Of a stretch of DNA of 42,922 bases, positions 1 to 4,747 are shown one piece after another (within the stretch, counting starts at the first letter, position 1; each line of letters begins with the position of its first letter). A program made the translations under genes and the position numbers. Origin of the DNA: Trueperaceae bacterium (GTDB taxonomy: Bacteria > Deinococcota > Deinococci > Deinococcales > Trueperaceae); contig PAMQ01000007.1 in NCBI GenBank assembly GCA_002707365.1, positions 1-42,922 on the forward strand. Direction: 5' to 3'. The notes under the pieces are model-generated. The model had not been told where the DNA came from, made no database searches, and was given only the letters and a program-made list of their open reading frames with translations.

Positions 1-81
1 TCACCATGTAAATGTGAAGTTTGGTGACACTGGTGTGCTTGAAGATATCAGTTTTGACATGGAAGCAGGCCAGTCCTTAGC
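1..81 (+). repeat. Left arm of an 81-base perfect inverted repeat (5' part of znuC)
   Basis: Bases 1-81 are identical to the reverse complement of 1740-1820. Identity stops at base 82 (a against g). The left limit cannot be seen because the window begins inside the repeat. Confidence 0.97.
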
Positions 82-715
82 AGTTGTCGGTCCTAATGGT
101 GGTGGAAAATCAACACTATTCCGAGTTGCTTTAGGACTGGTCAGTCCTAATCGTGGGCAAGCTGCGATCTTTGGCCAAGAACCAAGAAAGGCGTCTCCCG
201 CTGTAGGTTATGTACCCCAACTAAAAACTTTTGACCGGAGCTTCCCTACTAACGCCCTCGAGTTAGTTGTGTCTGGTATTCGGCGTGCCTGGCCAGCACG
301 AGTAACACGCCAAGAACACCAGCAGGCAGATCGGGCGTTAGATGGTGTTGGGGCCAGACACTTGCTCAAGCGCTCATTATCACGTCTTTCCGGTGGGGAA
401 TTGCAGCGTGTATTTCTTGCTCGCGCTCTGGTGAAGGAACCCAATCTTGTTCTTCTAGACGAACCTGCAACCGGGGTTGATTTCCTAGCCGAGAACGACC
501 TTTATGACCTGTTGGAACGTTATCAAGAAGCAACAGGTGCGGCTATAGCTATGATCACCCACGATCTTGCCGCAGCTAGGTACCATGCCTCGCAGGTGCT
601 GGTGCTGAACCGCCGAGTTCATGGTTTTGGTTGTCCTGAAGAGGTGTTACACGAGGATTATCTTCGTGGAGCTTATGGTCATGTGGGTCACTCTCATGAT
701 TTCACATTCGGATAA
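2..715 (+). CDS. znuC: Zinc/manganese ABC transporter ATP-binding protein ZnuC, 5' end cut by the window
   Basis: This is the ATPase subunit of a ZnuABC-type importer that drives uptake of Zn2+ or Mn2+ across the inner membrane. Visible motifs are Walker A GPNGGGKST, a Q-loop (VPQ), the signature LSGGELQR, Walker B LVLLDEP and the H-loop histidine in MITHD. The reading frame is open to the left edge (H-V-N-V before the GTG at 14). The inverted partial copy at 1703-1843 shows the native start to be an ATG about 13 codons upstream of that GTG, so the GTG is not the true start. znuB follows after 15 bases. The metal is not decided by the sequence, but the Fur/Zur-type gene nearby and the His-rich ZnuA favour zinc. 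Confidence 0.92.
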   Translation, partial: HHVNVKFGDTGVLEDISFDMEAGQSLAVVGPNGGGKSTLFRVALGLVSPNRGQAAIFGQEPRKASPAVGYVPQLKTFDRSFPTNALELVVSGIRRAWPARVTRQEHQQADRALDGVGARHLLKRSLSRLSGGELQRVFLARALVKEPNLVLLDEPATGVDFLAENDLYDLLERYQEATGAAIAMITHDLAAARYHASQVLVLNRRVHGFGCPEEVLHEDYLRGAYGHVGHSHDFTFG

Positions 716-730
716 TACACGTTAGGACCT

Positions 731-1585
731 ATGGAATTCATTGAACTTTTTGAGTTTGCGTTTATGCGGCGGGCATTAATTGCTGGTCTCCTGATTGCTT
801 TGATGACAAGTATCCTAGGGGTTTTTGTTGTGCAAAGGGGCCTAGCGTTCCTCGGTGATGGTCTCGCGCATGCTTCTTTTGGCGGAATGGGTTTAGGAGC
901 CCTCATAATTTTTGGCCTTGGGGCGTCTCTGGGGACTGATATTTTCCGACAACCTCTCTGGGTTGCACTACCATTCACCATAATGGCGGCATTAGGAATA
1001 GCTTGGGTTCGTGACCAAACTAACCTTGCGAGTGATACGGCAGTTGGGGTGTTCTTCGCTGTTTCCGTGTCATTAGGGGTAATCTTCTTCTCGATTATTC
1101 CACCAGATGCTGATATTGGGGTCGACGTTTTTGACCTTCTGTTCGGTTCAATCTTGGGGATACGTCAAGTAGATCTTCTATTGATTGTGATTGTTTGTGT
1201 TTTGTCTTTGCTGTTTTTCGCCTTAGCTTGGGGACACCTTGGTTACGCAACCTTTGACGAAGAAATGGCAAAGGTTGATGGGATAAGATCTAGGATTTTG
1301 GAGTACCTGCTTTTTGCAATAGCTGGCGTTGTAGTTGCTGTAAGTGCTTTTGTGGTGGGAATTATTCTGATCGCTGCTTATTTAGTTATTCCTGCTGCGG
1401 CTGCTCGGTTGTTATCACGTTCACTTATTGAATGGACAATTATCTCTTTGGGGATAGGCGTGATAACGACATTTCTTGGATTGATAATGTCATTTGTTCT
1501 GGATGTTCCGAGCGGGAGTACGATTGTGTTATCCCAGGCCTTAACCTTTATACTTGCAATCTTTTTCGGGAAACTTAGAGCTTAA
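731..1585 (+). CDS. znuB: Zinc/manganese ABC transporter permease ZnuB (ABC-3 family)
   Basis: This is the membrane channel subunit of the ZnuABC importer. It has 284 residues with about eight hydrophobic helices, the usual size for the ABC-3 family. The family-typical stretch FLGDGLAHASFGGMGLG lies near residues 37-53 and VVGIILIAAYLVIPAAAA near residues 208-225. The ATG at 731 is preceded by AGGA, a modest ribosome binding site, 15 bases after the znuC stop, so the two are co-transcribed. znuA lies beyond on the opposite strand, which is unusual for this operon. See the inverted repeat entries for a likely explanation. Confidence 0.92.
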   Translation: MEFIELFEFAFMRRALIAGLLIALMTSILGVFVVQRGLAFLGDGLAHASFGGMGLGALIIFGLGASLGTDIFRQPLWVALPFTIMAALGIAWVRDQTNLASDTAVGVFFAVSVSLGVIFFSIIPPDADIGVDVFDLLFGSILGIRQVDLLLIVIVCVLSLLFFALAWGHLGYATFDEEMAKVDGIRSRILEYLLFAIAGVVVAVSAFVVGIILIAAYLVIPAAAARLLSRSLIEWTIISLGIGVITTFLGLIMSFVLDVPSGSTIVLSQALTFILAIFFGKLRA

Positions 1586-1702
1586 AAACGATCTGATGGA
1601 TGTAAATCCACGCGGACAAGGCGGTATGACTAGGCCGTAAGAGAATCCTAAAATATTAGATCTTACTATTACAAGCTAGATAATGTAGTGTCATGTTTTT
1701 TC

Positions 1703-1843
1703 TTATAAATATTTTTCAATTTTGGCTAATTCGATAATCGCTAAGGACTGGCCTGCTTCCATGTCAAAACTGATATCTTCAAGCACACCAGTGTCACCAA
1801 ACTTCACATTTACATGGTGAAAATGCAAAGCCGGCGGGTTCAT
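1703..1843 (-). pseudogene. Truncated second copy of the znuC start, fused to unrelated codons
   Basis: On the minus strand an ATG lies 3 bases after the znuA stop and opens a 46-residue frame. Its first 35 residues (MNPPALHFHHVNVKFG and on to GQSLA) are the N-terminus of ZnuC. At the edge of the inverted repeat the frame runs into 11 unrelated codons and stops at 1703. It breaks off just before Walker A, so it cannot work as an ATPase. It shows that znuC originally followed znuA directly. It is either the scar of an inversion or an assembly or amplification chimera. Confidence 0.85.
1740..1820 (-). repeat. Right arm of the 81-base inverted repeat
   Basis: This is the reverse complement of bases 1-81. 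It lies just downstream of znuA on the same strand as znuA, where znuC would be expected in a normal znuACB operon. Confidence 0.97.
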
Positions 1844-2885: not shown

Positions 2886-3419
2886 GTGAGTAACGAAAAC
2901 CTTGCAAAAGAAATTTATGATGCCTGCCACCTTAAAGGAAACTTTCTTCTTCGCTCTGGCGCAATCAGTAAAGAATACTTCGATAAATACCTATTCGAAT
3001 CCCAGCCAGGTCTCCTAATGAAAATTGCTAAGGCCTTAATTCCGCTGATCCCCCCAGAAACCGAAATCCTAGCAGGATTAGAACTTGGCGGCGTTCCCCT
3101 AGCAGTAATCCTCTCGCAGTTAACAAACCTACCTACTGCTTTCGTGCGTAAGGAAGCGAAAGCCTATGGCACTAAAAAAATAGCTGAAGGAATAGAAATT
3201 GACGGCGCTAAAGTACTACTAGTTGAGGATGTAGTCACCTCTGGAGGGCAACTCATTCTCTCTGCTTCTGACCTTCGGTCTATAGGGGCCGACCTGACAA
3301 ATGCTGTTTGCGTAATTGATCGAGAAGCTGGGGGAGTAGAAAATCTTTCTGCTGAAAGCATACAACTAGAAGCCCTTTTTTCGATGAGCTTACTCAAGCA
3401 TCAATCTTCTCAGGGCTGA
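2886..3419 (+). CDS. pyrE: Orotate phosphoribosyltransferase
   Basis: PyrE joins orotate to PRPP to give orotidine 5'-phosphate, the fifth step of pyrimidine synthesis, in the cytoplasm. The protein has 177 residues. The PRPP-binding loop [13 protein letters not shown] is at about residues 110-122, and [12 protein letters not shown] at about 91-102 matches the flexible catalytic loop. The start is GTG at 2886, directly behind a TACAAT box. The last 10 bases overlap the convergent moaB gene on the other strand. No other pyrimidine genes are adjacent. Confidence 0.93.
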
Positions 3420-4372: not shown

Positions 4373-4747
4373 ATGAATCGGAACACACTACAGAAAACAG
4401 CCATTCTGCGAGCTCTCCAGAAAGCATCTGGACCTGTCACTCCCAAAGAGCTTAGGGACCTGACACAAACAGAGTTAAAAGGCATAGGGCTAGCGACCAT
4501 CTATAGAAATCTCCACCGCCTTCAGGAACAAGGGAAGGTGACTCCGGTCCACCTGCCAAACGATTCAACTCGGTATGAACCCTCTGGTAGAGATCATCAC
4601 CACCACTTTCGATGCGAATCATGCAACATGGTATTCGAACTCCTTTCAAGCTGCCCACCGCCTGAGGAGACCACCGTGCCAAACGGCTTTGCAGTACACG
4701 GCCACGAACTCGTACTTTATGGCCTATGTATAGATTGCCAAGGATAA
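4373..4747 (+). CDS. Fur-family metal-responsive repressor, probably Zur
   Basis: This is a DNA-binding repressor of 124 residues. The winged helix covers about residues 1-70 (recognition helix around GLATIYRNLHRLQEQGKV) and the C-terminal half is for metal binding and dimerization. Visible ligands are H75-H78 (DHHHHFRC), the structural zinc pairs C81/C84 and C119/C122, plus H109 and H111. It lacks the long acidic segments of many iron-sensing Fur proteins. Lying about 1.6 kb from znuA and immediately before a YibE/F gene with a His-rich tail, it most likely senses zinc, though PerR or Mur roles cannot be excluded. The yibE/F-type gene starts 12 bases after its stop. Confidence 0.85.
   Translation: MNRNTLQKTAILRALQKASGPVTPKELRDLTQTELKGIGLATIYRNLHRLQEQGKVTPVHLPNDSTRYEPSGRDHHHHFRCESCNMVFELLSSCPPPEETTVPNGFAVHGHELVLYGLCIDCQG

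Follow-up and report, generated by a model that had tools for sequence, protein, structure and literature searches.

The window analysed here is a 42,922-base stretch (C7:1-42922) of the 354,322-base contig C7 of a Trueperaceae genome, which totals 2.08 Mb in 19 contigs and is 96.7% complete. Base 1 of the window is the end of contig C7, and the left arm of an inverted repeat is therefore cut there. The left end of the window holds the following features, in which the duplication and its parts are putative:

1–81, + strand: left arm of the inverted duplication, inner end, covering znuC codons 9–35; a candidate collapsed-repeat stub, the reverse complement of 1740–1820, and the start of contig C7
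82–715, + strand: remainder of a znuC-like gene, encoding the ATPase of a cluster A-I metal ABC transporter; unique loop sequence, an open reading frame (ORF) scoring below the cut-offs of the NCBIfam MntA, AztA and ZnuC models
731–1585, + strand: znuB-like permease gene, unique loop sequence; an ORF with AztB as its best NCBIfam model, below cut-off
1586–1739, + strand: A+T-rich spacer of 154 bases behind znuB, found once in the genome
1703–1843, − strand: truncated znuC copy in which 35 native codons run into 11 foreign ones before the stop (46 aa), lacking the ATP-binding motif
1740–2775, − strand: 1,036-base repeat unit made up of 14 bases before znuA (ribosome-binding region), the whole of znuA and the first 35 znuC codons; its ends match C7:1–81 and the stub at the end of contig C15
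1847–2761, − strand: gene for a znuA-like substrate-binding protein of 304 aa with a His-rich loop, the probable native copy by pyrE; supported by ORF, NCBIfam and synteny
2776–2885, no strand: native intergenic region from which znuA and pyrE diverge, recognised from the divergence from C15 at its border and from the divergent znuA and pyrE of relatives
2886–3419, + strand: pyrE-like gene, which in Trueperaceae natively adjoins the znu operon on the right; supported by NCBIfam and synteny

The transporter belongs to the cluster A-I metal importers. As in ZnuABC, AztABC and the Deinococcus MntABC, the locus has an operon for a substrate-binding protein (SBP), an ATPase and a permease, with a His-rich loop in the SBP; it differs from these systems in that every NCBIfam score was under the curated cut-off. 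The AztA, AztB and AztC models gave 158 of 220, 164 of 280 and 165 of 350 bits, respectively, and the ZnuABC scores were lower. The equivalog cut-offs of the ZnuABC and AztABC family models were not reached, and matches to the Deinococcus MntABC models were also below cut-off. As none of the three sets reached its cut-offs, znu is used as a working name, with the His-rich loop of ZnuA suggesting zinc as the possible metal. The znuC-like gene at 82–715 matched its counterparts in relatives at 54–73%. A promoter and terminator scan of the locus gave matches near chance level, and the literature on Trueperaceae zinc transport yielded nothing useful. A Fur-family regulator gene (4373–4747), close to the znu operon and conserved in relatives, could encode a zinc or manganese regulator.

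Bases 1–81 were the exact reverse complement of 1740–1820, which confirmed the perfect 81-base inverted repeat given in the preliminary description; extended to 89 bases, the match was 97%. This was the only inverted pair of at least 25 bases within the window. A survey of 20 stretches of the same genome (400 kb) for exact inverted pairs of at least 18 bases with arms more than 100 bases apart found none, and at this threshold the window too yielded nothing besides the 81-base pair, which is therefore not attributable to chance. One surveyed stretch, C8:20001–40000, had a G+C content of 0.555 against 0.46–0.49 in the remaining sampled genome and is possibly foreign or mis-binned. The right copy was also as described: the znuC start codon, at 1843, lies 3 bases behind znuA and the gene breaks off after 35 native codons. 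This truncated copy is present only in the loop orientation shown in the window. The 81-base repeat is a real sequence feature, but 81 is no biological length; the contig end fixes one side.

A search of the genome with znuA located the other end of the repeat. The last 83 bases of contig C15 (C15:203868–203950) were the reverse complement of 2693–2775. This contig end carries a ubiD-like gene and then runs 83 bases into znuA, whose start is 15 bases past the ubiD stop. Together, the 81-base stub at the start of C7 and the 83-base stub at the end of C15 are the exact two ends of 1740–2775. The window and C15 diverge at 2775/2776, the outer border of the repeat; since the end of C15 repeats this border, the repeat would reach 2775, 1,036 bases in all. 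The block at 1740–2775 thus appears to flank znuC/znuB on either side as inverted copies and to have been assembled once; some 872 bases from the middle of the left copy presumably lie hidden between C15 and C7. The contigs were unbroken across the ubiD/znuA, spacer/repeat and znuA/pyrE junctions, and no ubiD/spacer join was found in the genome assembly. The repeat starts in AAGGATTATC where it borders ubiD, and the spacer starts with GATTATC at the inner border. Microhomology or quasi-palindromes are looked for at junctions of the tandem inversion duplication type, and, as a guess, AAGGATTATC and GATTATC could be microhomology used by a template switch.

Loci of relatives were gathered by a profile search of genome contigs with a UbiD alignment, which gave named Trueperaceae loci. 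All 19 relative contigs holding both genes had ubiD facing znuB (ubiD> <znuB), and the order continued as <znuB <znuC <znuA, followed, where the contig reached it, by pyrE> divergent from znuA. The comparison upheld znuA-znuC-znuB as the native unit, znuC and znuB being co-directional in 29/29 relative loci. In this genome, unlike in the relatives, ubiD abuts the start of znuA. From the relatives' gene order, the copy at 1740–2775 beside pyrE is taken as native and that between ubiD and znuB as the extra one. As the spacers of relatives span 15–158 bases where ubiD adjoins znuB, the 154-base spacer at 1586–1739 is likely to be the old ubiD-znuB intergenic spacer. None of the relatives examined carried the duplication, and the self-inverted repeats in their znu loci were short palindromes only, which argues against a conserved switch. 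A simple inversion of the whole operon was ruled out, as it gives no join of the spacer to znuC codon 35. A mixture of strains with and without such a plain inversion between ubiD and pyrE would account jointly for ubiD/znuA on C15 and znuA/pyrE in the window; it also predicts spacer/pyrE-upstream and ubiD/spacer joins, both of which were absent, and we regard it as very improbable.

The signature of a collapsed repeat was compared with known duplicates in the same assembly. A 1,218-base tuf sequence was identical in contigs C17 and C3, and C17 stops 99 bases into tuf. The complete relatives G006, G012 and G038 encode fusA-tufA-rpsJ and tRNA-Thr-Tyr-Gly-Thr-tufB-rpmG-secE-nusG. C17 ends in fusA-tuf and starts with tuf-rpmG-secE-nusG, and C3 (149000–152000) joins the four tRNAs upstream of tufB to tuf and then rpsJ, against the order in the complete relatives. 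On this comparison of gene order, the tuf join of C3 is assigned as a misassembly, a false route through a genuine 1.2-kb duplicate, and represents a definite error in a genome bin of high quality. The recA gene showed the same contig-end stub pattern (C3:188485–189526 and C1:28096–28194), and is two-copy in the complete genomes G012 and G006 (98.9–99.2% over 1 kb) and in G002 (100% over 947 bases); this genome and several Trueperaceae appear to carry two copies of it that are identical or almost so. In G016 the RecA model match of both recA copies stops at position 55, and these copies perhaps hold inteins. Since tuf and recA, duplicated in complete relatives, leave contig-end stubs here, such stubs mark true duplicates. 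Stub lengths in the assembly were 61, 81, 83, 86, 88, 99 and 120 bases, with 99 typical; given this variation (61–120 bases), the idea that 81 is the exact assembler k was dropped as proof. Further stubs of 88–120 bases were found at C4 start/C8 end, C14 end/C18 end, C18 start/C6:1055 and C19 start/C9:831, and are probably more collapsed repeats.

Direct observation covers the synteny, both stubs and all four junctions, and the apparent flip of znuCB is probably explained by a segmental inverted duplication of the 1,036-base block whose copies were merged by the short-read assembler. The chromosome would then read ubiD>, znuA> with 35 znuC codons, a loop (the rest of znuC, znuB and the 154-base spacer), the inverted copy and pyrE>. 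The native copy would lie beside pyrE and an identical inverted second copy, which may have arisen by duplication between ubiD and znuB, directly behind ubiD and before the end of znuB. The assembler would have passed the block once, in C7, leaving the 83-base stub at the end of C15 and the 81-base stub at the start of C7. Neighbouring contigs do end in stubs of 1740–2775, and the known duplicates tuf and recA give the same signature; it counts against this explanation that the stubs are 81 and 83 bases long and not the 99 typical of the assembly. Like other collapsed two-copy repeats (tufA/tufB here), the znu locus combines a repeat of 1.0–1.2 kb with one contig passing through it and exact stubs near k-mer length at the ends of neighbouring contigs; it differs in that the two putative znu copies are inverted and lie near each other, which makes the path double back. 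A resemblance also exists to segmental inverted duplication or tandem inversion duplication (Kugelberg et al. 2010, cited in PMC3533179), in that a short piece of chromosome would have an additional, inverted copy beside the original. The znu locus would differ in having one inserted inverted copy 1.66 kb away, and it shows no three-copy head-to-head-to-tail array.

The same observations bear on a library or assembly chimera, in which there would be no second znuA and both the spacer/repeat and the ubiD/znuA joins would be false. The window opens inside the repeat, at least one wrong join is proven in the assembly (tuf) and the duplication is missing in relatives, all of which would fit a chimera; the suspicion attached earlier to the contig edge was justified, as the window starts at the end of C7. 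However, two independent false joins would be needed, at both ends of the block, both replacing the true ubiD/spacer join; the tuf misjoin passes through a real repeat and is not a fold-back; and no other fold-back was seen in the 400 kb or at other contig ends. We consider a chimera unlikely, and its simplest form, the sequence folded back on itself as proposed in the preliminary description, does not agree with the presence of the missing left arm on C15 beside ubiD.

With a collapsed inverted duplication, the znuCB flip in the window would be one of two loop orientations that such an assembly graph allows. Short reads cannot orient the loop because both loop ends attach to the same end of the repeat, and the orientation in the window is not trustworthy given that the assembler joined the wrong flanks through the tuf repeat. 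The native orientation, pyrE-znuA-znuC-znuB, which all relatives have, stands at least an equal chance of being the true or predominant one. We built a model of both orientations, and in each znuA, znuC (245 aa) and znuB were intact, giving one intact znuACB operon and one solo znuA. Either orientation rebuilds znuACB because each arm holds the whole of znuA and znuC codons 1–35. For this reason, a switch that disconnects znuCB from its operon, as first proposed on the basis of 81-base arms, is not supported for arms of ~1,036 bases. In the model, a flip would change the upstream region, placing the operon behind the native intergenic region (2776–2885) or under read-through from ubiD.

Recombination between the arms may be able to flip the loop, and in a living inversion the long arms would recombine through RecA so that the znuCB loop flips in the population, changing the control of an unbroken operon. 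Such a self-rebuilding inversion, toggling the intact operon between a pyrE-side promoter and ubiD read-through by general recombination, is doubtful as an account of this contig. The arms, whose ends are identical, would match over 1,036 bases and enclose a loop of 1,658 bases; both modelled orientations restore znuA-znuC-znuB exactly, recA is present in the genome, and the left copy has a ribosome-binding region of its own and begins 15 bases past the ubiD stop. On the other hand, a dedicated invertase is lacking, the arrangement is absent from the relatives, and ordinary loop ambiguity accounts for the contig. No serine recombinase (PF00239) was found in the genome and its only tyrosine recombinase (PF00589) is on C12, far from the znu locus; with recA present, any flip would therefore run by general recombination. 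Invertons are site-specific, phase-variable inversions at short inverted repeats of 10–40 nt (PMC11892184). As in invertons, inverted repeats at the znu locus flank a segment whose orientation could matter, whereas its arms are at least 81 and probably ~1,036 bases long, no invertase is adjacent and the operon is intact in both orientations. An inverted duplication that is collapsed at the edge of a contig can thus mimic a gene switch, and before a flip is read from such contigs the missing stub has to be located elsewhere in the assembly. Should the duplication be real, znuA would be present twice in the species and the loop could flip freely with the transporter retained.
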